Positions 1 to 23,155 of a stretch of DNA of 34,187 bases are shown piece by piece. The notes beneath the pieces were generated by a model. The model did not search any database. It had not been told where the DNA came from and was given only the letters and a program-made list of their open reading frames with translations. Within the stretch, counting starts at the first letter, position 1. Every line of letters begins with the position of its first letter. Origin of the DNA: a virus. The stretch is taken from the IMG/VR virus record IMGVR_UViG_3300031851_000085, positions 1-34,187 of that record. One strand, written 5' to 3'. The position numbers were made by a program, and so were the translations under genes.

Positions 1-3000
1 AGATTTGCTGACTACAATACCATCATTAAAGATGGAAAAATTGTAGATTTTGAAATGGTAGACGAAGGTAAGTTCTACACGCGAGCAAATGTAATTGTCG
101 ATATTTTATCAGTTGGTTCTGGAGCTACAGCAGTCTGTGATATTGTAACTTGGACTAAAGATAGAGTTAATAAACTCAAAGATGTTCTCGATAGTAATAA
201 TGGTTATTACTTTACTAACTACAACACAGACAAAGGCAATGGATATGGCGTATGTGCTAGACCATTTGATTTAACTCAAAGTCTGGTTGATGATGGTAGT
301 CAGCACTCACCCATTTTGGGATTTGCTTACGATGGTCTGCCAATTTATGGACCTTATGGTTTTACTAACCCTCTGGACAAAAATAGTGCTGTTGCTAAGT
401 TATCTTCAGCATATGTTCTTAAATCTAATCGTTTGGGTGGTCCTAGCAGAGAAACATATCCACTAGGTACGTTTATTGAAGATTATGTATGGATGCCAAG
501 TACAAGAACTGGAAAATTGGACTTAGATGAGAATAATGGACGTTTTTGTGTAACACCCGAATATCCAGAAGGAACTTATGCATATTTCACATCAATTGAT
601 GATGACGGTAATCCTGCCTTCCCATACATTGTAGGTGAAAAGTTTTATTCTCTGCCTGTTGATTCTAACTACAATTCAGATCTATCTCAAGAAAATCTAC
701 CTACAAATGTCAAACGACTAAAAACTGCAGATGGATTGGTTAATGGTTCTAACACCATCTTGAAAATCAACTCAGTATCTACTGGTAACGTTGACGGTGT
801 TGATGTAATCGAATCACCAGATAGTTTTAAAGTTGGAAATAAATTCATTACTAATGATAAAGGATCAGGTGGATTTGGTGCATCGGCATTTGTTAAAGAA
901 GTTACAGGTAAGACTGTTACCTCCCTAACATGCAAATCTTTAGATCCCAATAATCTAACTAGTGTTTCGTATTTAAGATTGGTCAGTGCAGCATACCTAT
1001 TCAAAAATGACGTTATAACTCAAGAAGATTCAGATTTTACTGGTACAGTCATTGGTGACGTAATTAATTCTAATAATTTTGTCCTAGAAAATGTTACTGG
1101 TACATATGTACCTGGAAAGAAACTAAATTCGTCTTCTAGTATTCTAAGCATACTATTAGATAAGAATTCATTCTATACTGCTAATTCTGTTTTATCTTTG
1201 ACTGATGGGGATCAAAGTACCTTAGCATCTGGTAGAATTATTGAATTTGTAAGCAATCAGAACACAGTTAAGGTAGAATTGCTTTCTGGCAATTTTATTG
1301 TACCTGAAGATGCAGTTGTTGAATATTTTCTACAGAGCAATACACTTGGAGATACAGTTGGATCTAAAGTTATTACTCAAAGTAATCTAAGTAGGAACCT
1401 GGAAGCATTTTCTGCCGATGATAATATTGCATTGATTGAGACTGATGAACCACACAACGTTGGTGTTGGTAGTCAAATTGATATTACGTTAAATCCTGAT
1501 GTAGCACAGACAACCACAGATTATTATGTAAGAAAACGTTTTTACCAAGAAATCAAATTACAGAAACCAAATTTCGATAGCGTATTGAAAGATAGTGGTG
1601 TTGGTAGAGGAATTCTTTTAAATGGTGGTTTAGGATACACTGCAGGTGAGTTTTTAGACGTTGAACTAATTTTCCTTGATCAAAGTCAAGTAAGATCTGA
1701 TATTGGAGCTCCTGGTGATTCTAAAAATGCTAGAGCTACTCTATTTGTAAGTAATTTTGGTGGTAGTGGATATGGTAGTGTTTCTGTAGTTACCATCACA
1801 AATAAAGGTTCTGATTATATTAAAGGTGATGTCCTAACCGTTGTTGATTCAGATCTTAGTAGAAATCCGAGCGAGTTGTCTACACAAAGACTTGCTATTG
1901 ATGTTGATCACGTAGGTTTGTCTCTACAGAACGATACTATTAAGGTTAATCAAATTAACAAACTATCAATTGATGATTTACTTCTTATTGATAGTGAAAT
2001 TGTAAAAGTTACTGCTATCAATGAGTCCGAAAGAACTATTGTCGTTGATAGAGGACAAGAATCAACCAAGTTAGTTGATCATTACAATAATGCTCGCATT
2101 TCTTTGTATTCTGGTAAGTATAGGTTTGATGAGAATGCTAGACCTTTAGGTGATGGTGCAGATAAACCATATGTAATCAGTTATGATCCTATTACACAAA
2201 ATATGGTCTTGGCATTTAATTATGATGTCACATCACCTAGTGTAGTAACTTTTAGCAGTATTTTCCAAGACGACAGTACCCCTGCTAAGTCTATTGATAT
2301 TTCTGAAGTCAATCAAGGTGAGAATCGCCTTGAGTTCTCCAAAGATATTAACTTCGCAACTTATGCAGCAAATACTGATATCAGGATTCAGAAGTACTAT
2401 CGTTATAAGTTTGACACTAGTCATTCTTCAATGCGTGGCATCTTCCTCGATTTCTCTGCTAGTAGACAAGGTAACCTATTTACTGAAGAAAAAGAAGTTA
2501 GTGGTATTCAACCTGGTAATGTGGGATCTTATGTTGCTATCACTTTAGGATTTGGTCCTGCTATTGTAGGATCTACGCAAAAACGTTATCCAGTTAACTT
2601 TGACACGTATTACTACTTTATTAAAGCAGGTAGTAACGTCAATACTGATAATGCTGCACTTAAAGTAATTGATGATCCTATTGCTGGTTTGAAAAGTGCT
2701 GTTTTTGTTACTCCAAACAAATTTGCATATTCTATTAAAAAATTACCTGATTATGATGGTAAAGGTGATATTTCATACACTACAACATCTGCATTTGCTG
2801 AAGGTAAGATTGTTTCTGCATCTATTGATAATCTAGGTCAAGAATATTCAAGAATGCCAATTATTGAAGGTTGCTTAGTATCTTCAAACAATGAAACAGT
2901 TGTTACAGCAACCATCGATACTATTACTACAGGTATTTCTGCTATTGGTATTACTTCGGGTGGTAAAAAATATATAAATCCAGGAGCAATTGTCACCAAT

Positions 3001-6000
3001 GGTGATGGCGAAGGTGCTGAGTTTAAGGTGTATTCAGAAGCAGGAACAGTTAGAAGAATTGATATTCTTAAACCTGGTAAAGGTTTTACATATCCTCCCA
3101 CAATTTCTGTATATGAAAAAGACGTAAAAGTATATTTTACATCATCTAATATTGGTGTACCTAAGGATATTAAAATTATTTCTAATGGTGGTGATTTCCA
3201 TGCAGACAATACCATTGAAACGGTATTCAGATCTTCATATGCAGTTATTGCAAAAGGTGATATTCCTCAGTTCTTTGATGGAGAGCGTGTTCAGCAACGT
3301 ATTGGAAACACAACTATCTTCTCAGCATATATTTCTAAGGGTGGTTGGAGACAAGGATCTAACATTATACGTCTATCAAAAATTGATGGTGTATTTGATA
3401 CTAATATCGAGTTGACATCTGTATTAGATTCTAGCAGAAGTGTTGAAGTTGATCAGGTACTTTATACTGAATTTGATACTGATGTAAGAACATACTACAA
3501 TAACCTTGGTAGGTATGCATCTGATAGAGGTAAGATTAGCAGCAGGTCACAAAGACTAACTGATTCTTATTTCTACCAAGACTATTCGTATATGATTCAG
3601 TCTAGGACTCCCATTGATGTATGGAGAGACCTAATCAAGCAAACAACCCATCCAGCTGGTTTCCAACTGTTTGGTGAAGTTTTAATTGATAGTACACAAC
3701 AAATTGAAATGCCTGTTGGTCAAACACCAACTACAAGCATTACTATTATTGAATTACCAAAGGTTACTATTAGTTCGGAGTACAAATCCACAGTCCTTAC
3801 TAATACTCTAGTTACTATACATGATCTCAACGTTCGTAGAGGTGTTGGATCTATTTCGATTGATGAATATGATGTTGAGGGTATTCTATCCAAAGAATTA
3901 ATTCTACAGCAAGATTTTGACGGTCGTTATGCAAGTGATGCCGATTTTATTGGAACAGCGAGAGAACTAAGCAGTACACCTACACTTTCTTCATCTGCAG
4001 GTACACTTAATGCTCCTGCTGGCGAAGTATTGAAATTATATGCAACTAAGCAGTTGAGTAATAGTATCAGTGTGCAACCCACCGATTTATTCTCGCAAAC
4101 ATATATTAGTACTTTAAGTGTAGGTGATGTTGAATTTGAAAGTGGTGGTGGCATAGTAGATTTAGGTTCTACGCCAGTCCAAGGATTTGTTTGGGATTAC
4201 TCAAGCACCCAAAAAGTATTTGGTGTCAGGATTTCTGATACTGCTGAGAATCCTTTGCAGAATTGTGAAGTTGGTGATGTATTTACTTACTATCAAACTG
4301 CAACAACTTACTTTACATTTGAAATTACTGAGTTACTTGCACCTGCATATGACGCTGTTACTGGTATTAATGGTAACGGTAATGTCATTGGAAGAAAAAC
4401 GTTTACTTTAATAGATAAAGCAAACAATCTTCCATATACTCCATATAATGAGCAAGAACTATTTCTTACATTGAATGGTGTTGCTCAAGAACCTTTAAAA
4501 TCATTTAAAGTTGAAGGTACTCAGATTACATTTTCAGATGCTCCTCTAGGAGCACAGTATCCTGTAACTGGGCAAGCTACTGATGACACCTATGAAACTG
4601 ATCCTACTAAATTTGTTTGCCGATCATTTAAATTTAAGAATGACTTATATAATGATAGGTATCTCAGAAAGTTAAAAGATATTTCACCTCAGTTTGATGG
4701 TATCACTACTCAGTTCGATCTTTATTGGAATGATGGTACTGTTGTTAAGTCAGCTGACGGTGAAAAGTTTCTTATCTTTATGAATGGTGTGCTACAGAAA
4801 GCAAAAACTACTGAGGATACTCCTCTTGGTAATGCATACTATATTAGGAAAAGAACTTCCGATTCGCAACCTGATGCTATTGTATTTGCTGAAGCACCTA
4901 GAAATTTTGCAGATGATATTGATAGTCCACCAGTCCAATTAGATCAAAGAGAATCATTCTTTGGATATACCGTTGGTGCTTATGATCGTCTGACCATTGA
5001 CAATCGTCTTATTCCATATAGAGGCGTTGGTCCATACTTGGTATTTGATGAAGTTGAAAATACAATCAAGAATATCACTGATGCTAGATTTGCTTATGTT
5101 TTCGTTGATGGTGTACTTCAAAATCCTGATACCTATATTCTTAATGGACCCAACATTACATTTACTGATATTCTAACTAAGTATACTCCAGAAACTGGGG
5201 AAGCAACGTTTAGTAAGGTAGATATCATTTCTTTGTATGGAAGACAGGTTCCAAAAACATTATCTTTCTATGATTTTGATAGATTTGGTTATACTAATGA
5301 ATTAACAATAAACTTTGAAAGAAAAATTACCACTGCTAATGGAACTTCTGAATATCTAAATTTCCAGAACAGTCTTAATTCATTCAATCCATATGCTACC
5401 AAAACTTTATATACACTTGCCGCTGATGGTACTAGAAAACATCTTGGTAAGGTAGATGGTATTTTCTATACTGAATTGGCAGATGGTACAGCAGATGGCA
5501 GTTCTAAACCAGATGTTGTTGCAACCAAATTTAGATTCACGCTTTTAAATGCATCTAATATAGATTTTGAAAACTTTTCTTATGATCCATTAACAGATGA
5601 CGATGATGATTACACTAAAGTTCAAACTATATTTGTAACTGATGGTGATATTATTATTAGTCTCAATAACCTGAACAAAGAATATTCCATCGATGTTTCA
5701 TATAGAACTGATGATGAGGGATTGAGAGAACTTACTAGGGATATTCCTGGATGGTTGCGTGGGTCTGCGATTGGCGATGATGCATATAATACTAAGTATG
5801 AATTGCTTAGTGATATTCTCGAAGGTGATCAAATTTTGGTTGACGGTGAATCTGAAACCAGAACTATTGAATCTATTCCTGCTTTTGCAACAACCAGAAA
5901 CTTTAGGAATGGCGAAGTTGCTAAGTTTGAACACTTTGCTAAGGTAGAAGCAACTAATTATAATGGATTGATTAGAGGTGAAGGTCTTAGTGTTACTTGC

Positions 6001-7812
6001 CAAATTACTGATGGTGTAGTATCTAATATTGGATTTAGTGATCTTGAGTGGAACAAAAGAGACCTTAAGTTATTCTTTGACACAGGTATTCTTCTACAAC
6101 CAACAGCATACCAATACTTTAGTCCACCACAAATTAAATTTGTTGCCCAAGATGGTAATGGTGGTGGTGCAAAAGCAGAAGTTCTTTCTGTAAACGGTCA
6201 AATCTTAGATGTCATTCTGATTGAAGGTGGTTCTGGATATACTTCACCTCCTAAAGCAATTGTAACTAGAGGTTACGATGTATACAGAAAACCAAATCGT
6301 GTAATTAGCACTCTTTACAATTTTACTGTATCAACGCAAGTTGCTAGTGGTGGTTCTCTATCTGTAGTACAAACCGAAGTTGCTCTGTTTAGTGAAGGTG
6401 CTCAGTCTGGTATCTTCTCTATTATTTCTTTTGGTGGTCTTACTGGTGTAGCAACTCAAACTGCTTCTCAGAAAACTACAGAGGTTCATGGTGAAGGTGT
6501 TGAAGCAGGTACTGAACTACGTCCTAATATAGGGCAGATCACTACCAGGCGTCCAATTGATACTAATGTTTCTCAGGCAACTATTCCTGGAACAACTGTT
6601 ACTCAGATTACATTGGATATTACTCCAGTGTCGATTACATCTACATCTACTATTGAGACTCAAGAACTCAATCTTATTGTAGAGATTGACATTAACAAAC
6701 CAGCAGTATTCATTCAAGATTCTGATGCCTACAGTGGCGTTGGTGCTTTCTTGGATTCTGCTTTGTCTCCAAGTGCTACTACAGTATACATTCCAAATAC
6801 TTCCTTGTTCTCAGATCAAGGCAAACTGCAAATTGGTAAGGAAATTGTATCTTACGATTCCAAACTACTTGACAGATTCCTAGATGTAACCAGAGGTATT
6901 GATGGAAGTTTTGCTCAAGCACATCCAGGTGGTCAGTACCTTAGAACACTTCCTGAATCTATCAGTGTATTCTCTGCGGGTGTTCAAACAATTCTGCAAA
7001 GCGAAATTTCTGTTGCAACCACTGACATCTCAGTAGTTGAGCAGACAGCAACTATAACTTCTGAACAGTCAGTAATCTCTCAAGAAAGAATTATTGAAGT
7101 TACTATTAGACATGAAGAAATTACCGCATTCCTTGATGTTGAAGTAGATAAAGAATTACTGATCATTCCCCCAGAATCAGAACTTGATAATTCATCTTTA
7201 GCACTTGGATTCTCTAGCGTCAGTTACATTAGTACTGCAGTTGAAAATATTAGTTCTAATATTACAGCAGTTCAGCATAGTTCTACTATCATTACGGTAG
7301 AGAACAATATTGAATTGGTACAGAACTTACAAGTTGGTACACAAATTACCAAGTTTGATGGGTTTGCTACCATTACTGCTATTTCTTCTGCACTACTAAC
7401 ACCTGAAACTCAGGTTCAGGTATCTGTTGCTCCTGTAATTAATACTATGAATGCCTTGGTGACAAATTCTGTCATCACTGTCATTCTTGCTACTGATACT
7501 ACAGCAAGAGTTGATTTCACCAGAGGTGCTGACGGTGGCATTCTTGGTGGAGAAACAGCGACTGAAAGAAAGGATGCTGCAGCGACTCAGGCAAACAGTG
7601 TAGAAATGACTTCTACAGTGTTTACTACTATTATGAGTAACGTTGATACCTCCGCATCTGGTATCGAGTCTACATATAGTGTAAGTTCGCATCTACCAGT
7701 TATTGGTGGTATTGATAAACCTGCTGATATACAATTAACCAGACAAACTGGTTTAATCGATTACTTTACAGAACTTGTGGTATTAGAAACTTCCGTTGTA
7801 ACTAGAAATTAA
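1..7812 (+). CDS. Giant YHYH-domain virion structural protein (3' part, gp7 position)
   Basis: The frame is open from base 1, so this is the C-terminal 2603 residues of a longer protein; the true start lies upstream. Visible residues ~60-215 form a YHYH-like domain: QHSPILGFAYDGLPIYGPYG at 101-120, then NGRFCVTPEYPEGTYAYF near 179-196. Further on are GxGYT-type beta modules (~535-545, ~970-1040, ~2040-2090), a stalk-like motif with conserved RG and H (~641-697, again ~2261-2315), an FDTSHSSM segment (~804-811), and three tail-fibre NGV-Q motifs (~1481-1520, ~1590-1633, ~1696-1725). The last ~290 residues are rich in Thr, Ser, Val and Ile and poor in aromatics. It precedes gp8 and a 177-aa gene, roughly the T4 gp7 slot, but I see no direct gp7 similarity. 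The inferred role is baseplate periphery or adhesion. The stop overlaps the next ATG (TAATG). Virion protein is near certain; exact identity is not. Confidence 0.85.
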   Translation, partial: RFADYNTIIKDGKIVDFEMVDEGKFYTRANVIVDILSVGSGATAVCDIVTWTKDRVNKLKDVLDSNNGYYFTNYNTDKGNGYGVCARPFDLTQSLVDDGSQHSPILGFAYDGLPIYGPYGFTNPLDKNSAVAKLSSAYVLKSNRLGGPSRETYPLGTFIEDYVWMPSTRTGKLDLDENNGRFCVTPEYPEGTYAYFTSIDDDGNPAFPYIVGEKFYSLPVDSNYNSDLSQENLPTNVKRLKTADGLVNGSNTILKINSVSTGNVDGVDVIESPDSFKVGNKFITNDKGSGGFGASAFVKEVTGKTVTSLTCKSLDPNNLTSVSYLRLVSAAYLFKNDVITQEDSDFTGTVIGDVINSNNFVLENVTGTYVPGKKLNSSSSILSILLDKNSFYTANSVLSLTDGDQSTLASGRIIEFVSNQNTVKVELLSGNFIVPEDAVVEYFLQSNTLGDTVGSKVITQSNLSRNLEAFSADDNIALIETDEPHNVGVGSQIDITLNPDVAQTTTDYYVRKRFYQEIKLQKPNFDSVLKDSGVGRGILLNGGLGYTAGEFLDVELIFLDQSQVRSDIGAPGDSKNARATLFVSNFGGSGYGSVSVVTITNKGSDYIKGDVLTVVDSDLSRNPSELSTQRLAIDVDHVGLSLQNDTIKVNQINKLSIDDLLLIDSEIVKVTAINESERTIVVDRGQESTKLVDHYNNARISLYSGKYRFDENARPLGDGADKPYVISYDPITQNMVLAFNYDVTSPSVVTFSSIFQDDSTPAKSIDISEVNQGENRLEFSKDINFATYAANTDIRIQKYYRYKFDTSHSSMRGIFLDFSASRQGNLFTEEKEVSGIQPGNVGSYVAITLGFGPAIVGSTQKRYPVNFDTYYYFIKAGSNVNTDNAALKVIDDPIAGLKSAVFVTPNKFAYSIKKLPDYDGKGDISYTTTSAFAEGKIVSASIDNLGQEYSRMPIIEGCLVSSNNETVVTATIDTITTGISAIGITSGGKKYINPGAIVTNGDGEGAEFKVYSEAGTVRRIDILKPGKGFTYPPTISVYEKDVKVYFTSSNIGVPKDIKIISNGGDFHADNTIETVFRSSYAVIAKGDIPQFFDGERVQQRIGNTTIFSAYISKGGWRQGSNIIRLSKIDGVFDTNIELTSVLDSSRSVEVDQVLYTEFDTDVRTYYNNLGRYASDRGKISSRSQRLTDSYFYQDYSYMIQSRTPIDVWRDLIKQTTHPAGFQLFGEVLIDSTQQIEMPVGQTPTTSITIIELPKVTISSEYKSTVLTNTLVTIHDLNVRRGVGSISIDEYDVEGILSKELILQQDFDGRYASDADFIGTARELSSTPTLSSSAGTLNAPAGEVLKLYATKQLSNSISVQPTDLFSQTYISTLSVGDVEFESGGGIVDLGSTPVQGFVWDYSSTQKVFGVRISDTAENPLQNCEVGDVFTYYQTATTYFTFEITELLAPAYDAVTGINGNGNVIGRKTFTLIDKANNLPYTPYNEQELFLTLNGVAQEPLKSFKVEGTQITFSDAPLGAQYPVTGQATDDTYETDPTKFVCRSFKFKNDLYNDRYLRKLKDISPQFDGITTQFDLYWNDGTVVKSADGEKFLIFMNGVLQKAKTTEDTPLGNAYYIRKRTSDSQPDAIVFAEAPRNFADDIDSPPVQLDQRESFFGYTVGAYDRLTIDNRLIPYRGVGPYLVFDEVENTIKNITDARFAYVFVDGVLQNPDTYILNGPNITFTDILTKYTPETGEATFSKVDIISLYGRQVPKTLSFYDFDRFGYTNELTINFERKITTANGTSEYLNFQNSLNSFNPYATKTLYTLAADGTRKHLGKVDGIFYTELADGTADGSSKPDVVATKFRFTLLNASNIDFENFSYDPLTDDDDDYTKVQTIFVTDGDIIISLNNLNKEYSIDVSYRTDDEGLRELTRDIPGWLRGSAIGDDAYNTKYELLSDILEGDQILVDGESETRTIESIPAFATTRNFRNGEVAKFEHFAKVEATNYNGLIRGEGLSVTCQITDGVVSNIGFSDLEWNKRDLKLFFDTGILLQPTAYQYFSPPQIKFVAQDGNGGGAKAEVLSVNGQILDVILIEGGSGYTSPPKAIVTRGYDVYRKPNRVISTLYNFTVSTQVASGGSLSVVQTEVALFSEGAQSGIFSIISFGGLTGVATQTASQKTTEVHGEGVEAGTELRPNIGQITTRRPIDTNVSQATIPGTTVTQITLDITPVSITSTSTIETQELNLIVEIDINKPAVFIQDSDAYSGVGAFLDSALSPSATTVYIPNTSLFSDQGKLQIGKEIVSYDSKLLDRFLDVTRGIDGSFAQAHPGGQYLRTLPESISVFSAGVQTILQSEISVATTDISVVEQTATITSEQSVISQERIIEVTIRHEEITAFLDVEVDKELLIIPPESELDNSSLALGFSSVSYISTAVENISSNITAVQHSSTIITVENNIELVQNLQVGTQITKFDGFATITAISSALLTPETQVQVSVAPVINTMNALVTNSVITVILATDTTARVDFTRGADGGILGGETATERKDAAATQANSVEMTSTVFTTIMSNVDTSASGIESTYSVSSHLPVIGGIDKPADIQLTRQTGLIDYFTELVVLETSVVTRN

Positions 7813-8405: not shown

Positions 8406-10280
8406 ATGGCTGCAATTATCTCAGATAAGTTTAGAATTTTTAATGCTAAACAGTTTCTAGAATCTTTGTCTGAAGGTGCTACAGACACCTCCGACGAGAG
8501 AACTAGAATGTATTTCTTCGTAGGGCGTCCACAACGTTGGGATGCTTATCTGGAGATTTACTCAGCGAACGCAACTGCGTTCTCTGCAGGTCAAAGTGTG
8601 TATGTCAGTTCTGACACAAATGGATCCTATACATGGTCCAACGCACCTTTCCGCGCAACAATCGAAAAGGTTTATGACAACTCATTGGTATTGAGTTCTG
8701 TTACTCCTTCCGTTACTTCTGCTCCACTAACCAACGCTGTTATTGAAGGTTGGAACGGTTCTTCTGACACTGGTGCTGAGGCACGTGCAGGCGTTTACCG
8801 CTATGCAACAGAAGATGCACCTCCAACACCTCTCGACAACCAAGTTGAGAAATACGGTGTATATGACGAAATCATCGCTGCTAAGCGCATCACCGATCAA
8901 TTTGCACGTGCTGTAATTACACGTTATGATTGGAACACGCTTGCTGCAGAAGCACGTTTCGACATGTTCAAGCCTGACTATTCTTCCACAACAACTGGTC
9001 AAGTAGGTAAGCAGTCCACAACTGGTGCTACTACTCTAGGTGCTTCTAAGTTCTACGTTATTAACAGTAACTACGAAGTCTTTAAGTGTCTCTATAACGG
9101 TCAGTTCCCTGGTCAGACAGATCCACAACCTGCATACGAACCCAAGACTACACCTTCTGGTGGTGAAGGTACTTATAACTCAAGTACTGGCATCTTTACA
9201 GAAGAAGCATCTGCAGTTGTTGCTAACGCTGCTGGTTCTGGTTATGTCTGGAAGTACATGTACACCATCCCTACCGATGATGTTCTGCGCTTCTTGTCCA
9301 CTAACTTTATGCCTATCAACCTGAAGGCAGAAACAACACGTGCTGCAACCGAAGCTCTTGCAGTTGATGGTGCTGTAGACATCGTTCTAGTTGAAGATGT
9401 TGGTTCAGGTCTTCCTGATGGTACTCACTATGCACCTATTTCAGGTGATGGTCAGTCTGTTACCGAAGGCGTTGTTAAGGTTGTAGTTACCTCTGGTGCT
9501 ATCGAATCTACCGAAGTTGTAGTTCGTGGCGCTGGTTACACCTATGCTAGTGTTCTCCTTGATGATGGCGCTACTACTGGTGGTGTTAAGTCTGGTCTTT
9601 ATGCCGAACAGTCCCTGACTACTGCTCGCACTGGTGTTACTGGTGTTGGTGCTCTTGAGGTTGTTCTTGCTCCTCAGGGTGGTCATGGTTCTGACTTCGA
9701 GTTGGAATTGAACGCCAAGCGCGTCATGACTAACATCCGCCTTACTTATGCTGAAGGTTCTGGAGACTTCCCTGTCGATAACGACTTCCGTCGTATTGGT
9801 ATTATTAAGGACCCCTACAACTTCGCTACCACAGATTACGCAGTTCTAGATACCCTTAACGGTCTCTATGCTGCTAAAGTCACAGGTGCTACTGCTGATT
9901 TTGTTCCTGACGAACAGATCACACAAGCACTTGCTTCTGGTGGTACTGCAAAAGGTACTGTGGTTTCTTGGACACTTGACAGTGGTTCTACTACCGCTGG
10001 TGTTCTTAAGTATCTCCAAGCACCTGAGCAGCATACCGATAGCGGTATTGTTCGTGCTTTCGATGATAGTGCTTCTATCATCGGTGCTTCTTCACTAGCA
10101 CAGGGTACTGTAGATGATACAGTTACTGCAGTAACACTTCTTGGCGTTCCGTTCACTGACGGTTTCGGTACTCCACAGATTCAACCCAACTCTGGCGAAC
10201 TCATCTATGTTGAGAACCGCCGTTTGATCACCCGTGCTGCTGACCAAATTGAAGACATCAAGTTAGTTATTGAGTTCTGA
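8406..10280 (+). CDS. 8: Baseplate wedge protein gp8 (T4 gp8 homologue, enlarged)
   Basis: Homologue of T4 gp8, a subunit of the baseplate wedge that joins the gp7/gp10/gp6 assembly around the hub. The strongest evidence is the C-terminus (residues 596-624, SGELIYVENRRLITRAADQ and on), which aligns with the C-terminus of T4 gp8 (SGEMIYMENRPPIIMAMDQ). GYVWKYMYTIPTDD at 279-292 matches GYVWEYLFEIPPD, DFRRIGIIKDPY near 460-471 matches GFRQISIITNPL, and FYVINSNYEVFKCL near 216-229 matches the T4 DIVVCNSAPYNA...LVYRCL region. At 624 aa it is nearly twice the T4 protein (334 aa). The extra length sits at ~50-130, in a GAGYTY beta module (~320-420), and in ~475-585 (FVPDEQITQALASGGTAKGTV). Codons look more C-ending than in neighbouring genes. 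The ATG at 8406 follows the late promoter. Confidence 0.95.
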   Translation: MAAIISDKFRIFNAKQFLESLSEGATDTSDERTRMYFFVGRPQRWDAYLEIYSANATAFSAGQSVYVSSDTNGSYTWSNAPFRATIEKVYDNSLVLSSVTPSVTSAPLTNAVIEGWNGSSDTGAEARAGVYRYATEDAPPTPLDNQVEKYGVYDEIIAAKRITDQFARAVITRYDWNTLAAEARFDMFKPDYSSTTTGQVGKQSTTGATTLGASKFYVINSNYEVFKCLYNGQFPGQTDPQPAYEPKTTPSGGEGTYNSSTGIFTEEASAVVANAAGSGYVWKYMYTIPTDDVLRFLSTNFMPINLKAETTRAATEALAVDGAVDIVLVEDVGSGLPDGTHYAPISGDGQSVTEGVVKVVVTSGAIESTEVVVRGAGYTYASVLLDDGATTGGVKSGLYAEQSLTTARTGVTGVGALEVVLAPQGGHGSDFELELNAKRVMTNIRLTYAEGSGDFPVDNDFRRIGIIKDPYNFATTDYAVLDTLNGLYAAKVTGATADFVPDEQITQALASGGTAKGTVVSWTLDSGSTTAGVLKYLQAPEQHTDSGIVRAFDDSASIIGASSLAQGTVDDTVTAVTLLGVPFTDGFGTPQIQPNSGELIYVENRRLITRAADQIEDIKLVIEF

Positions 10281-18594: not shown

Positions 18595-18773
18595 TGAAAG
18601 TCCAGGGTCACGACCATCTTTATCGTGACCCCAATACTGGTGCGATAATTAACACACAAACTCCACCTTCTAAAGTATTATCTTCTGCCATAAATGACAT
18701 AAATACTTTGAAGAAAGAACTATATGAAATTAAACAACTCTTAAAAGAGATAGTACGAAATGGGAATTCTTAG
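18591..18773 (+). CDS. 60-aa small phage protein with GHDHLYRD motif
   Basis: The ATGATG start overlaps the TGA of the giant gene (18592-18594), and the 3' end overlaps the next start by 14 bp, so the gene is wedged in a coupled translation unit. An AGGGTGGTG stretch ~9 nt upstream may act as ribosome binding site. The N-terminal half has GHDHLYRDPNTGAIINTQ, a motif I recall from small conserved peptides of T4-like cyanophages but could not verify here. The C-terminal half (~30-56) is a predicted amphipathic helix or coiled coil (INDINTLKKELYEIKQLLKE). It may be an assembly or trimerisation helper for a neighbouring fibre or baseplate protein; no function is established. Either Met (18591 or 18594) could be the start. 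The first codons form a strong hairpin, listed separately. Confidence 0.8.
   Translation: MMKVQGHDHLYRDPNTGAIINTQTPPSKVLSSAINDINTLKKELYEIKQLLKEIVRNGNS
18605..18631 (+). promoter_or_regulatory. Strong 9-bp hairpin inside start of the 60-aa gene
   Basis: GGGTCACGA (18605-18613) and TCGTGACCC (18623-18631) are exact inverted repeats with a 9-nt loop. The stem has 6 G-C pairs of 9, high for this AT-rich region, and starts ~11 nt after the start codon. It also encodes the GHDHLYRDP motif. It could modulate translation or mark an RNA-processing site. There is no T-tract after it, so it is not a standard terminator. Confidence 0.55.
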
Positions 18774-21700
18774 AAACGTAGCTAAATCTGACACCTTTGA
18801 ACGTCAAAGGCAAACTATCAACCAGATTGCTCAAGATATTTACAATCTTGGTGGTGGTGGATCTGATTTGTCTACTGGTCTTCTAAGACTTGGAAATGGA
18901 AGTAGAACAGAACCTTCATTGTCATTTGCAAATGACACATCGGTTGGTATCTATAGACCAGACACAAAGAAACTGGCATTTGTAAATGATGGCAAAAAAC
19001 TACAGCAGTTGCAGAACGAAGCATCGCTGTTTTATAGAAATTTAATTCTACAAAAAAATATTCTTCACAGTGAAGGTTTATCCATCACTGCTAAAGGTCA
19101 AGATTATGATGAGGGATCTTATCAAGATATTGCCGCTATTGGTGGTACTGGTCAGGCAGGAACATTAGACCTAACAGTATCTGGTTTTGATGGAACTACA
19201 ACTCCTGGTTCTGGATATACTTACGTATCTGGTGGACTTGGTGGTGGTGGTACAGAATCATACCAAGGAGTTCAATTAGTTGGTGGTAACGGTTCTGGTA
19301 TTGAAGTCGAAGTTGTTCATGAATCTGGTTCATTTACATCTACAGTAGTATCTGATTATGGATCTGGATATCAAATAAATGACGTTTTAACATTACCAGT
19401 ACAAGTAACTGGTGCTACTGGTACTGCAGATTCAGGTGGTAGTACTATTGTGATGTCCAGTAATGCTGGAATGTTTACTGGATGGACTTGGACACAAACT
19501 GGAGGAACTGCTACATTTGATCCCCCAACAGACCTTGATGGTAACGCCGAACCAATTATCGTTCAAACTGTTGACGATTTAAGTGGAACTGATATTGATA
19601 TCAACGGAACTTGTACCGCTACTGGTACGGTAACGTTTACTCTTACTCCACCGTGGGGTAATGGTGGTTCTGGATATGCATTTACAATTGATGTTCTTGG
19701 TATTATCACAGAAGCTACTGTAAATCAAGCAGGTGAAGGTTACTCTGTTGGAGATACTTTAAGTATCTTTAATTTAGATCTAACAGCAGCAATTCCTTAT
19801 CTTGTAACAACAGTACAATACATTAAACCTGTTTTTGATGCAACTGTTCCATCAGGAACTTTTGTGGCAGGTCAAAATTATAATTTCTCACAGGAAGATG
19901 CATTAAATCCAGGAACATTTGCTAATGTTGCTGTAGTATGTGAAGAAGTATATGACAATGGATCTGAAATTGTCACAGTTACTTTTACTATGGTTGATAC
20001 GAACGAATCTATCAACCAAGGAGATTTGTTTGGTTCTCTAGAAGTTACTGAGATTTCTAGTCCTAATAGATTCCTCATCGATCTGGATGAAGCAGATGCT
20101 GGCACTGATCCATTTCTATATCCAGACTTAACTCTATTTGTTAATAACAAATATGAATTTGATTGGTCTAATGCATCTAGTCACCCATTTAGATTCTCTA
20201 TCCACCCTGATGGTATTCACAACAAATATGAAGAAAGTATAACTGTTGTTGAAGATTCGCTTACTATTACAGTATCGGATGCTTCTTCTATTTTAGTTGG
20301 AATGACTGTCGTTAAAGATACTGAAAATGCAGGTCTTAATGATAGCGGTGATGTGGATGGGGAGGCAGTTGTAGAAGCAGTTAATGGTAATGTAATTACT
20401 CTAAGTGCTCCAGTTACTAGTTCTGGTACTATGCCAGTTATTATTGCTGGTGTAAAGTATGAAGGTTCTGAAGTAGACTATGATGATAGTAATAGCAAGA
20501 CTACTATTGCTGGAAATGATGCAACCCCAACAACGCTATATTACTACTGCGAAGTCCACCCAAACATGGCAGGTTTGACTGGTCAACGTGCTGAAGTAAC
20601 CATTGATCCTAATAATACTAAAGTATTTGGTAGTGGTTTTCAACTTCTAGTAACGTCAATTGTTTCAACAGATAATGTTACTCTAGATGTAAGTAGTGGC
20701 GGTGTAACTGCTTTAGTGGTTACTGCAGATGATGTTCAATCCACAACTGCTACTATACCTACAATAGATGTAGAAGAACTGAACGTTGATACTGATGGTA
20801 AGGTTAATACAGAATATATTCTGTCTCCTACATCAATGAAGATTGAAACTACTGGTCTTTTGAGTCCATTCAATCTTAAAACTGCAAAAGTTAATTTCAC
20901 AACTCCAGGTTCAACTGATCTAGTAAACATTGAAATTTTTACTGACACTGGAGATGTAGTTACATCGGGTCAATTCAAAACTACTGGAGTATTTAATTCC
21001 AGTGATCTACTAAAGATCGATGGTAATAAAATTGAAGCACAGGGTACTAGCGATCTTCTTTTAGATCCTGCACCAAATAGAGTTGCTATCATTGGTGGTA
21101 CACAGGCATTACAAATTCCTGCAGGTAACACTGCTGCTCGTCCTGCACTTGGTCTGACTAATGATGGTGCTATTAGATATAACACCCAGACTACTCAGTA
21201 TGAAGGTTATAGTTCAGCAACTACTTCTTGGTCTTCTCTTGGAGGAATTCGAGATCTAGACGGTAATACTTATATTACTGCAGAAGAATCGGTTGGTGCT
21301 AATGATGATACTTTCTACATCTATAACGGTAATAGTAATACCTTAAAAATTACTCCAACAAAATTTAAGTTTGAAGAATTAAAGCAGATTGCATCTCTCA
21401 ATACATCTGCTCCAACATATACTGAATGGTTCTCTAACACACCTGTAACTCTAGGTCAATACCTCAAGCACAGAAATAACATTTATGAAGTAACTGTTGC
21501 TGGCATTACTGCTACTGATGGCAATGCTCCAACGCATACAACAGGTGCTCAACCAAACAATACTTCAGAACTGACATTTTACACTACGGCAGTAGGAAAT
21601 CTTCTATTCCAAGAAATTGATGAAGTACAAATTGACCCATTTGGTGATACATATCTAACTGTATCTGGAGATCTGAGACTCAGAAATAATGTTGTTGCTA

Positions 21701-22647
21701 CAGACATCAATGACTTGATTCTGAGACCTAATGCTGGTAAGAAAGTTGTTGTTGATGCAACTAGTACGCTAGTTTTACCTGTTGGTAATGAAAACGAAAG
21801 AGGTGCTGCCCAAACAGGTTCAGTAAGATTTAATACAACATCTCTACAGTATGAAGGTTATGACGGCAATAACTGGGGTTCTCTTGGTGGCGTCAAAGAC
21901 GTTGATCAGAACACCTATATCATTCCTGAGACTGCACCTGGTGCCAACGAAAATATTCTTTACTTCTACAACAACGGTGTTAACACCGTCCAGTTAAGTA
22001 CGTCTTCACTTGACCTGACAAATATTGATAGTATTACTTCAATCAATAATACATCTCTCGGATTTGAATTTAAGACACTTACTGCAGATAATGGTTCTAC
22101 TGTTCTACAGAACACATCTGCTGATGAGACTTTCCTTTACAACACCAAACAATACTTTAAGTTTGGTATGTCAGCAGGTCTTACAGTTGACCCACTGGTT
22201 GTCCTAGAAGATAATGGAGATATTTTCTACAATACAGGATTTGGTACTGGTAACGAAACTCCACTCAAATTATTGAATTCTAGTCTCACTGACTTTGAAC
22301 TAAAAGATTATAAGGTACAGACTAGTACACTTGAACTTGTAAAAGGTACACTTGATGTTGGTTCAGCACTTCTTTATAATACTACAACATCTAAAGGTTG
22401 TAAATTGATGGTAATTTTGGAGAATACTATTTCCAATAAATCATCGTTCATGGAATTCAATGTTATTGATGATGGTACTGAAGTATTCTATAACGAATAC
22501 GCTGGTGTAAATACTAGTGAAGATGCTGCAACTGCAGTATTTGATATTGACGTTGATAACAACGCTAGAATTACATTTACATTGACTGAAGATCATACTC
22601 TTAATGATAATATTAAAATCACTGTTGTTGCTCAAATTCTAAAGTAA
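18760..22647 (+). CDS. Fibre-like virion protein with cupredoxin-like domain (1295 aa)
   Basis: The start MGILRNVAKSDTFERQRQTI is of a type I recall from cyanophage structural proteins. Residues ~48-80 (EPSLSFANDTSVGIYRP) match a common tail-fibre N-terminal motif. Residues ~140-230 and ~300-340 are Gly-rich GxGYT-type beta modules. Residues ~455-610 look like a cupredoxin fold: SSHPFRF (His475) and, later, YYYCEVHPNMAG (Cys597, His600, Met603), the pattern of type-1 copper ligands, with a ~70-residue beta insert between. Two homologous C-terminal modules follow: RYNTQTTQYEGYS...SLGGIRDLDGNTYIT (~803-870) and RFNTTSLQYEGYD...SLGGVKDVDQNTYII (~1022-1088). The ATG lies inside the 60-aa gene (14-bp overlap), preceded by AAAAGAGAT. 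Virion role is well supported; copper binding is inferred from motif only. Confidence 0.9.
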   Translation: MGILRNVAKSDTFERQRQTINQIAQDIYNLGGGGSDLSTGLLRLGNGSRTEPSLSFANDTSVGIYRPDTKKLAFVNDGKKLQQLQNEASLFYRNLILQKNILHSEGLSITAKGQDYDEGSYQDIAAIGGTGQAGTLDLTVSGFDGTTTPGSGYTYVSGGLGGGGTESYQGVQLVGGNGSGIEVEVVHESGSFTSTVVSDYGSGYQINDVLTLPVQVTGATGTADSGGSTIVMSSNAGMFTGWTWTQTGGTATFDPPTDLDGNAEPIIVQTVDDLSGTDIDINGTCTATGTVTFTLTPPWGNGGSGYAFTIDVLGIITEATVNQAGEGYSVGDTLSIFNLDLTAAIPYLVTTVQYIKPVFDATVPSGTFVAGQNYNFSQEDALNPGTFANVAVVCEEVYDNGSEIVTVTFTMVDTNESINQGDLFGSLEVTEISSPNRFLIDLDEADAGTDPFLYPDLTLFVNNKYEFDWSNASSHPFRFSIHPDGIHNKYEESITVVEDSLTITVSDASSILVGMTVVKDTENAGLNDSGDVDGEAVVEAVNGNVITLSAPVTSSGTMPVIIAGVKYEGSEVDYDDSNSKTTIAGNDATPTTLYYYCEVHPNMAGLTGQRAEVTIDPNNTKVFGSGFQLLVTSIVSTDNVTLDVSSGGVTALVVTADDVQSTTATIPTIDVEELNVDTDGKVNTEYILSPTSMKIETTGLLSPFNLKTAKVNFTTPGSTDLVNIEIFTDTGDVVTSGQFKTTGVFNSSDLLKIDGNKIEAQGTSDLLLDPAPNRVAIIGGTQALQIPAGNTAARPALGLTNDGAIRYNTQTTQYEGYSSATTSWSSLGGIRDLDGNTYITAEESVGANDDTFYIYNGNSNTLKITPTKFKFEELKQIASLNTSAPTYTEWFSNTPVTLGQYLKHRNNIYEVTVAGITATDGNAPTHTTGAQPNNTSELTFYTTAVGNLLFQEIDEVQIDPFGDTYLTVSGDLRLRNNVVATDINDLILRPNAGKKVVVDATSTLVLPVGNENERGAAQTGSVRFNTTSLQYEGYDGNNWGSLGGVKDVDQNTYIIPETAPGANENILYFYNNGVNTVQLSTSSLDLTNIDSITSINNTSLGFEFKTLTADNGSTVLQNTSADETFLYNTKQYFKFGMSAGLTVDPLVVLEDNGDIFYNTGFGTGNETPLKLLNSSLTDFELKDYKVQTSTLELVKGTLDVGSALLYNTTTSKGCKLMVILENTISNKSSFMEFNVIDDGTEVFYNEYAGVNTSEDAATAVFDIDVDNNARITFTLTEDHTLNDNIKITVVAQILK
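20101..20580 (+). other. Cupredoxin-like (type-1 copper site) domain within the 1295-aa protein
   Basis: The encoded segment runs from the strand LTLFVNNKYEFDWSNASSHP to TLYYYCEVHPNMAG. Ligand-like residues are His475 (codon 20182), Cys597 (20548), His600 (20557) and Met603 (20566). Plastocyanins use His...Cys-x2-His-x4-Met with ~47 residues between the first His and Cys. Here the spacing is 122, explained by a ~70-residue inserted beta module (SITVVEDSLTITVSDASSIL through the IIAG end). The Met spacing (x2 rather than x4) is shorter than in plastocyanin, so the site could be altered or non-functional. Confidence 0.6.
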
Positions 22648-22648
22648 A

Positions 22649-23155
22649 ATGCCAGTTATCCAAAAACTAGATAGCAACCAGGGTTTTTCTGTCGATCAAA
22701 AAGTGATCGTAGATGAACTCAGAAATGCTAAAGACTTAAACAGTTTAGAAATTAAAAATAGAAATTACGAAGAAAGTTATACATCATATAACATTCTCCG
22801 AGGTTCTAATACTGCTATTCTTTCTACAGATTTGGTAGGATCTCAAATCATTTTGCCAGATAATACAATATCTTTTATTACAGGAAAAATTGTAGCTGCT
22901 AATGAAATTGGAAATGCTTTTTATAATGCAAAAATTGAATCATGTGTAAACACTGATAATGTTGGCGCAAGTACTGTTCAAGGAAGCATGATTACTGTCA
23001 TTAAAGATAGTATTCCTGGTGGACAAACTTGGGATATTGAACCTTTTGTAGGTGGTGGAAACAACAAGTTTAGTTACTCAACTACAAGAGCAGGAACAAC
23101 TCTATCAATTAGATGGTTGGTTTATACAGAAGTAATCAATATCGAATGGCTCTAA
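22649..23155 (+). CDS. 168-aa protein resembling a free-standing tail-fibre C-terminal domain
   Basis: The ATG is one base after the TAA of the 1295-aa gene; no strong ribosome binding site is visible, so coupling is likely. The N-terminal ~50 residues are charged and helical-looking (VDQKVIVDELRNAKDLNSLE). Residues ~63-168 form a beta domain: VGSQIILPDNTISFITGKIV, a loop with Cys, then QTWDIEPFVGGGNN and finally TTLSIRWLVYTEVINIEWL. This LPDNT...WDI...TLSIRW pattern is one I associate with C-terminal domains of phage tail-fibre and other virion proteins, here encoded as a separate small gene. It sits directly upstream of the giant fibre, so it could cap or attach a fibre. No enzymatic motif is seen. 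Confidence 0.8.
   Translation: MPVIQKLDSNQGFSVDQKVIVDELRNAKDLNSLEIKNRNYEESYTSYNILRGSNTAILSTDLVGSQIILPDNTISFITGKIVAANEIGNAFYNAKIESCVNTDNVGASTVQGSMITVIKDSIPGGQTWDIEPFVGGGNNKFSYSTTRAGTTLSIRWLVYTEVINIEWL

Follow-up and report, generated by a model that had tools for sequence, protein, structure and literature searches.

Does a phage particle carry a type-1 copper site? This question is raised by an open reading frame (ORF) in the window, by which we mean the whole 34,187-base virus record IMGVR_UViG_3300031851_000085, handled here as a single contig. The ORF (positions 18760 to 22647, plus strand) encodes a 1295-amino acid virion structural protein of the family phrog_6005 (1440 bits), four residues of which are candidate copper ligands. 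Our interpretation is that residues 436-618 constitute a cupredoxin-like domain with a type-1-copper-type site in a baseplate or fiber protein of the virion, and that a beta-barrel interrupts the domain after the first ligand and before the loop carrying the others; we place the probability of this interpretation at about 60%. A preliminary description of the DNA had proposed that a virion protein contains a cupredoxin-like fold, an inserted beta domain and type-1-copper-type ligands, all of which we retain, and had linked them to plastocyanin and electron transport, which we do not.

The motifs SSHPFRF and YYYCEVHPNMAG occur as that description gave them, and residues 475, 597, 600 and 603 are His, Cys, His and Met, with codons starting at positions 20182, 20548, 20557 and 20566. 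These residues form a type-1-copper-like ligand set, His...Cys-xn-His-xm-Met, and sit in the expected strand and loop places of the predicted model. His475 (20182 to 20184, plus strand), a predicted ligand, is model residue 40 and lies just before a strand (model residues 42-45); an equivalent His is present in 85 of 91 compact relatives. In the predicted ligand loop Cys597-x2-His600-x2-Met603 (20548 to 20568, plus strand), the Cys ends model strand 157-162 and the loop precedes the last strand (177-181). Met603 is probably the fourth ligand beside His475, Cys597 and His600. His475 and Cys597 are 122 residues apart, and subtraction of a 70-residue insert leaves 52, as had been computed previously, whereas subtraction of the 77-residue insert delimited by structure (489-565) leaves 45. 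In natural relatives that lack the insert the spacing is 45-56 residues, and is exactly 50 in 48 of 108 among the matches listed. The loop had been likened to that of plastocyanin; its spacing, Cys-x2-His-x2-Met, is instead of the amicyanin type.

When the loop pattern YYYCxxHxxM[GA]G was back-translated and searched in a viral collection, at least 120 stretches were found. Among the matches listed there are 122 loop-motif places, nearly all of them in compact domains of about 100 residues that belong to one family. A His is found 30-62 residues upstream in 108 of these places, 9 have too little upstream sequence, and the other 5 comprise two compact domains in which the spacing is longer, plus three split domains. 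Because the 108 domains were picked by their loop, conservation of the loop in this sample is uninformative; the upstream His lay outside the search pattern. We rejected a pure chance motif since the upstream His recurs with the loop and the ligands are conserved in samples chosen without regard to them.

A hidden Markov model (HMM) built from the 108 natural un-inserted marine viral domains was compared with the 261 frames of the window. The 1295-amino acid protein scored best (full-sequence E 3.2e-14 in this small search) and was matched in two pieces, with HMM positions 14-63 corresponding to residues 455-502 and positions 63-99 to residues 573-610; the remaining matches within the protein scored at most 1.1 bits. 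Since the two pieces abut at the single HMM position 63, the domain is indeed split by an insertion of about 70 residues, as had been proposed. The N-terminal half (residues 436-488; 20065 to 20223, plus strand) is covered by this HMM and holds His475. The inserted barrel comprises residues 489-565 (20224 to 20454, plus strand), as judged from structural matches of model residues 54-130 and from an insert HMM that aligns with residues 492-565. The C-terminal half (residues 566-618; 20455 to 20613, plus strand), which is covered by the compact-domain HMM and by a structural match to the copper protein entry 2dv6_A, holds Cys597, His600 and Met603.

The insert itself resembles known phage barrels. 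Its structural matches include the tail tube 9n71 (Z 7.5), the decoration protein 8eci (Z 7.3, root-mean-square deviation 1.8 Å across 65 residues), the tailspike 4ru4 (Z 6.8) and 7vul (Z 5.9), and it also resembles capsid barrels and a domain of Uba1 (Uba1 entries Z ≤5.4). Several unrelated phage entries thus agree on this fold, yet all have Z <8, and by sequence 8eci is reached only at E 2.5. The insert HMM, built from 77 rows including the window, gave a weak match to residues 216-295 of the same protein (19405 to 19644, plus strand; 4.4 bits; independent E 0.01 with five proteins searched and 0.54 with the whole window searched), which may be a second, free-standing copy of the barrel. In cyanophage S-WAM2 (L022; L numbers are our locus labels), the orthologous domain has neither insert nor ligands, and a barrel copy is found elsewhere in the same protein, at residues 152-214. 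Because S-WAM2 has no barrel in this domain and carries one elsewhere, the barrel looks like a mobile phage module. Its insertion is probably tolerated since it interrupts a loop at the surface, at a distance from the site.

AlphaFold2 was used to model the compact domain at the C-terminus of L124, a natural relative, and residues 436-624 of the window protein, and gave predicted local distance difference test (pLDDT) values of 96.4 and 94.4, respectively. The L124 domain is the end of a 246-amino acid frame. The compact model is a beta-sandwich, and the first seven rows of its VIA re-alignment are all copper proteins. At the top are 2dv6, 6tfo and 6tfd, which represent the N-terminal cupredoxin of Hyphomicrobium denitrificans nitrite reductase (Z 7.5, 7.2 and 6.9), followed by amicyanin entries (Z 5.3-5.1) and, lower, by a pseudoazurin carrying an amicyanin loop (Z 4.9) and by AcoP (Z 4.7). 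For the window model, 2dv6_A is the fourth row (Z 6.6, 85 aligned residues) and spans model residues 1-187, and hence both halves of the domain. The best amicyanin row has model residue 100 opposite chain residue 105, so that the two chains end together; if this end is ungapped, Cys87, His90 and Met93 of the compact model would fall opposite amicyanin residues 92, 95 and 98, which we take to be its ligand positions. A comparison of the compact domain with BFVD gave 53 viral models at E ≤0.001, and the named ones among the 50 listed include tail-fiber and baseplate-connector proteins. For the predicted Greek-key beta-sandwich of the cupredoxins the evidence is mixed: copper proteins lead the VIA rows of the compact model (Z 7.5-5.1), with Z-scores below 8 and Foldseek results that are not significant. 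An enzyme of the nitrite reductase or multicopper oxidase type was rejected, as a single cupredoxin-like unit was found in the window protein and the 2dv6 match is limited to the N-terminal part of that reductase. The viral protein treated in the available part of PMC8115048 is a NirK and not this domain.

The compact-family profile was also aligned with 29 cupredoxins, consisting of 12 phage PetE and 17 amicyanin-like sequences, all 17 of the latter falling below the TIGR02657 cut-off. The His, Cys, His and Met columns came into register with a score of 28.1 (probability 47%), compared with a maximum of 22.95 for 100 column shuffles and 10.4 for the reversed alignment. The probability was 32% against the amicyanin-like sequences alone and 3.5% against PetE alone. 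Family sequence models (PF00127 applied to the window; PF00127, TIGR02656 and TIGR02657 applied to the compact relatives) fail to place the domain in type-1 copper families: among 66 compact members, PF00127 touches 17 weakly (best E 0.0018), TIGR02656 touches 5 (best E 0.06) and TIGR02657 one (E 0.12). A phmmer search of the PDB with the window domain returned only a nanobody and carbonic anhydrases (E 0.63-1.2), the split-family profile returned a LIM kinase and the decoration protein 8eci (E 0.11-2.5), and no solved relative of the whole 1295-amino acid protein was found in the PDB at E ≤1.

Retention of the four residues was examined in relatives selected by other parts of the sequence. 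Compact domains were chosen by the stretch between the His and the Cys; from the 122 places listed, 27 truncated and 4 duplicate ones were removed. Among the 91 matches that remained, all four ligands are present in 85, one (L132) proved to be split, with its loop intact, and 5 have neither the upstream His nor the Cys loop. These five viral compact domains (L150, L155, L162, L170 and L184) lack the entire Cys-His-Met loop. Most split domains were selected through a motif that follows the loop on its C-terminal side, and 20 starting rows similar to the window domain were added; removal of 8 short or unrelated and 20 identical rows left 112 distinct domains among the matches listed. In 77 of them the Cys is present, and each of these 77 has the upstream His; the other 35 have no Cys, and 12 of these retain that His. 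Thus, a Cys without the upstream His was found in 0 of 77 split domains (Fisher p 2e-15, kinship ignored). The axial residue of the 76 His-Cys-His split sites is Met in 45, Glu in 29 and Val in 2. The other states are a Cys with a more distant loop His (L276), both His without Cys in one domain, the upstream His only in 11 and none of the ligands in 23. Split domains with an axial Glu (29 of 112; L209, L220, L230, L232 and others) often have a longer loop, and 20 of the 21 among the usable proteins described below are in two-copy proteins.

Many of these proteins contain a second domain of the same family. Exclusion of 21 cut proteins reduced the 93 distinct split-domain proteins to 72 usable ones, namely those whose ORF starts inside the locus together with L216 and L220, which are cut yet long enough to reveal an upstream copy. 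A second, compact copy is present in 46 of the 72, near residues 260-415 in the uncut proteins. With kinship ignored, 69 of the 72 have at least one His-Cys-His site (46 of 46 two-copy and 23 of 26 one-copy proteins), and the compact copy retains this site in 45 of the 46 two-copy proteins. In L323, the compact copy has lost all ligands and the split copy retains His-Cys-His. The ligand columns are among the best conserved of the compact copies, a sample not chosen by ligands: Cys and the loop His are each found in 45 of 45, the upstream His in 45 of 46, and the axial position is Met in 43 and Gln in 2 of 45. Loss of the Cys from the split copy is seen in 20 of 46 proteins with two copies versus 3 of 26 with one (Fisher p 0.008, kinship ignored; L276 counted as Cys-retaining), and in 26 of 53 versus 3 of 27 (p 0.001) when isolates and the window are added. 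Isolates ACG-2014h, S-H9-1, S-H9-2, Syn1, Sf-CH1b and S-RIM32 have a lost split site and a compact copy in the same protein; that of Syn1, the only one of the six read for ligands, is confirmed to bear them. As this redundancy pattern predicts, the window protein has one copy and it is intact. Loss of the residues in close homologues had been named as a point that would tell against a copper site. Close relatives (S-RIM44, Sf-CH3, Sf-FR1 and the IMG/VR relative L004) keep all four residues; distant ones do lose them, though 20 of the 23 usable Cys-less proteins carry a second, intact copy. In a quick tree of 112 rows the Cys changes 12 times and the His 11 times, and the states cluster by kinship. 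For Cys versus His, the three independent pairs on supported branches were on average 2.7 concordant and 0 discordant, a comparison without power.

The gene content of the window, as determined from the ORF list and from Pfam and PHROG profile searches, is that of the baseplate region of a T4-like cyanophage. The large ORFs encode, in order, a 2585-amino acid YHYH protein, a 177-amino acid protein, gp8, a 2759-amino acid protein, the 1295-amino acid protein, a 168-amino acid protein and an open-ended giant protein. The baseplate wedge subunit gp8 (8406 to 10280, plus strand) matches PF09215 (E 2.4e-12) and phrog_438 (E 4.4e-166). The phrog_6005 match of the 1295-amino acid protein is best over residues 390-1295, and the family is annotated as virion structural protein; membership agrees with both full-length homology and synteny from gp8 to the following giant protein. 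A Synechococcus phage Sf-CH3 protein is 76% identical to the 1295-amino acid protein across 100% of its length. Orthologues in S-PM2 (T4-like gene cluster GC829) and Syn1 (GC1069), both annotated as virion structural proteins, lie downstream of gp8 and upstream of a giant protein, annotated as tail fiber in S-PM2, and gp13, and the order of the large ORFs in the window matches that of these two phages. According to the available part of PMC3037559, S-SM1 virions were studied by proteomics, and the results, together with earlier ones on S-PM2 and Syn9, were transferred to orthologues; the names of our orthologues presumably rest on these data. A similar domain is present in 48 phage records, all of which are named Synechococcus phage, Prochlorococcus phage or Cyanophage. 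Among the neighbors, the N-terminus of the 2585-amino acid protein is a YHYH domain (PF14240, E 1.8e-26; 256 to 597, plus strand, residues 68-181 of ORF 55 to 7812). A segment at 2368 to 2547 (plus strand, ORF 1 to 7812) aligns weakly with part of the compact-domain HMM (domain E 0.002 when only the window was searched), has no Cys-His-Met loop, and is possibly a worn-out cupredoxin-like domain. The 168-amino acid neighbor (22649 to 23155, plus strand) has a sub-cut-off match to PF06184 (Potexvirus coat, E 0.012) that is probably due to chance.

The compact domain is more widely distributed. It was found in 72 phage records, 60 of them Synechococcus phages, Prochlorococcus phages or Cyanophages, 4 Pelagibacter phages and 4 Methylophilales phages. 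When bacterial and archaeal genomes were searched with a pattern requiring the loop, 130 stretches were confirmed and 80 of them kept. The 36 stretches that were read include several that are phage-like, some that are lipoprotein-like at the N-terminus (from SAR86, K189A, Woeseiaceae and Poseidoniales) and others in giant flavobacterial frames; the first two labels are apparent, as they are readings of the N-termini. In the apparent lipoproteins of SAR86, K189A, other Gammaproteobacteria and Poseidoniales (L344, L349, L356, L357, L365, L369, L372, L373, L392, L397 and L403), the compact domain is in the C-terminal part. A recurring phage-like protein of 215-265 amino acids (L324-L327) has the domain at its end, a similar N-terminus and the motif GFRY near residue 20. 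The compact-domain profile matches 17 of 40 genomes of a SAR86 family and 12 of 60 of a Poseidoniales family; many of these genomes are environmental DNA assemblies and may include phage contigs.

Phage records with a relative of the domain usually have a PetE-like frame as well: such a frame, separate and of 109-129 amino acids, is present in 15 of 17 of these records. Eight weaker PF00127 places lie in frames of 285-977 amino acids of these phages, two of them over the cut-off. Viral plastocyanin is listed among photosynthesis functions in the available parts of PMC2186209 and PMC5504273. A link of our domain to plastocyanin and host electron transport, which the preliminary description had drawn, was not borne out, given the amicyanin-type loop, the poor profile match to PetE alone, the separate PetE frames and the occurrence of relatives in phages of non-photosynthetic hosts. 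A plastocyanin acquired for photosynthesis was rejected for similar reasons, namely the different loop, the separate PetE frame in 15 of 17 records, and relatives in phages of SAR11 and Methylophilales.

Several results weigh against a copper-binding cupredoxin. The window domain has no match to a Pfam copper family, and PF00127 finds nothing in the window; the strongest Pfam E among the compact members belongs to PF25489 (At5g54830-like), with 8 of 66 touched and a best E of 1.9e-5, and this family also touches 4 of 77 split members. When the compact profile was compared with PDB sequences, plastocyanin came first but at E 0.22 and among antibodies. The profile score against cupredoxins depends partly on the loop, falling to 17.9 across 23 columns when the loop is masked, and the split-family profile fails to align properly with cupredoxins (3-16%, score ≤25.4), with the insert laid on their first part. 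With Foldseek, neither the compact nor the window model matched anything in the PDB at E ≤0.001, and the top rows were mostly antibody-type immunoglobulin folds for the compact model and phage and other beta proteins for the window model. All cupredoxin Z-scores are below 8, a range that, according to the tool, can reflect a common arrangement. For the compact model, the non-copper protein 2yhg (Z 5.1) and the immunoglobulin domain 2cpc (Z 5.0) rank just below amicyanin, after which the rows are a mixture of cupredoxins and immunoglobulin domains. Because the Z-scores are below the safe level, it is in combination with the ligand pattern that the cupredoxin fold is well supported. The site can be dispensed with, as its ligands are missing from the single-copy proteins L223, L250 and L321 and from isolate S-WAM2. 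For loss versus second copy, the three supported pairs in the tree, which differ in loss, showed on average no difference in second copy in 2.6, concordance in 0.3 and discordance in 0.1; the tree therefore gives no support to the redundancy association, and this comparison too is without power. Finally, the second-copy HMM was built from ligand-bearing domains, which favors intact copies, although it nonetheless scored ligand-free copies in L323 (37 bits) and S-WAM2 (23 bits).

These results bear on four other explanations. The Foldseek rows of the compact model, and the immunoglobulin rows close behind the copper proteins in the VIA re-alignment, raise the question of whether an immunoglobulin-like phage beta-sandwich resembles cupredoxins by chance. 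We consider this improbable, since full structural alignment brings copper proteins to the top and the ligand columns are among the most conserved in a sample chosen otherwise; the immunoglobulin-like rows are likely analogues. Another explanation accepts descent of the fold from cupredoxins but makes it a pure binding or packing module that is free of metal in the virion, with His, Cys and Met kept for core packing or hydrogen bonds. Free copper is scarce in the host cytoplasm, the place where virion proteins fold, and some relatives keep the domain without ligands (Cys is absent in 35 of 112 split domains, and S-WAM2 is a further case), both of which would suit such a module. Its weakness is the pattern of loss, which is ordered and often all-or-none: in addition to the 0 of 77 split domains with Cys and no upstream His, the upstream His is likewise missing from all 5 compact domains that have no Cys loop, and one His-Cys-His site is kept in 46 of 46 two-copy proteins. 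We therefore regard a metal-free module as unlikely, while giving it real weight.

The remaining two explanations concern what a bound copper ion would do. As type-1 copper proteins are usually electron carriers, the virion might contain a working redox center that passes or stores an electron, for example in sensing the host envelope or in triggering a change in the baseplate, and the apparent lipoproteins of SAR86, K189A and Poseidoniales that share the domain could be redox partners or functional analogues. This seems quite unlikely to us in view of the variable axial residue (Met 45, Glu 29 and Val 2 among 76 sites) and of hosts that include non-photosynthetic bacteria; no partner protein or docking patch was identified, and none was searched for. 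Tolerance of Met, Glu and Val at the axial position argues for metal binding rather than a tuned redox potential, and an electron-carrier role is the less likely one. Alternatively, copper displayed on the tail might be recognized by, or compete for, a host copper-uptake receptor in the manner of a Trojan horse. A type-1 site binds its copper tightly and buries part of it, making it ill-suited to display, and we judge this idea highly improbable. The position of the gene in the baseplate/fiber region would fit it, as would the analogy with iron-binding HxH motifs of tail fibers (PMC11705849, available part).

Overall, we consider residues 436-618 most likely to be a copper-binding cupredoxin-like module of the baseplate/fiber region. 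Each domain would bind one copper ion, probably acquired outside the cell, from sea water after lysis, and the ion would stay in place as a cofactor, locking or shaping a baseplate module that is exposed and serves in binding or packing; the location of the domain in the virion and its role in infection are what we infer. A broader proposal is tentative and somewhat doubtful: that virions of abundant marine phages (T4-like cyanophages, pelagiphages and Methylophilales phages) carry real type-1 copper centers in baseplate/fiber proteins and form an oceanic copper-binding pool, with the metal used in attachment or baseplate function and a module that also occurs in surface lipoproteins of SAR86 and Poseidoniales. 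On this view, copper may be present in many particles of marine viruses. If so, a blue-copper-type site in the particle would, to judge from the open-access papers searched, be a new kind of virion cofactor, beyond the known iron in His pairs, and would tie phage particles to marine copper chemistry. It would also provide a concrete lead for domains that recur in marine phage proteins annotated merely as structural, hypothetical or tail fiber. The analysis further cautions that plastocyanin-like matches in viral contigs are not necessarily photosynthesis genes. Cupredoxins and phage petE are already known; as far as we searched the open-access full-text literature (PubMed Central), we found no report of a virion protein with a cupredoxin or copper site, and a type-1-copper-type domain in such proteins appears to be new there. 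The closest idea encountered is that of iron in tail fibers (PMC11705849, available part).

Among known systems, the N-terminal cupredoxin of the three-domain copper nitrite reductase of H. denitrificans is, over most of the domain, the best structural match of the compact model and the best cupredoxin match of the window model. It differs in being part of an enzyme, and identity is 16-18% with Z <8; to our knowledge, it contains no inserted phage barrel. The likeness to amicyanin consists of a profile in register and Z-scores of 5.3-4.8 to the un-inserted model. Amicyanin has the short Cys-x2-His-x2-Met loop, and the 17 amicyanin-like sequences share this spacing with the window domain, but amicyanin is a free periplasmic electron carrier. 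Plastocyanin/PetE (PF00127), including phage petE, has the same types of ligands, whereas the phage PetE loop is longer, Cys-x2-His-x4-Met in 12 sequences. Barrels like the insert occur in the decoration protein of Bridgette, the tail tube of Mystique, the tailspike of LKA1 and a domain of Uba1; here the barrel is nested inside another domain. Finally, the HxH motifs of phage tail fibers (T4 gp37; the Ferrojan horse, in the available part of PMC11705849) likewise place a proposed metal site at the end of the virion that contacts the host. In that case iron is held by paired His residues of a trimer, whereas the window domain would hold its metal in a single-chain His-Cys-His-Met site of the copper type.

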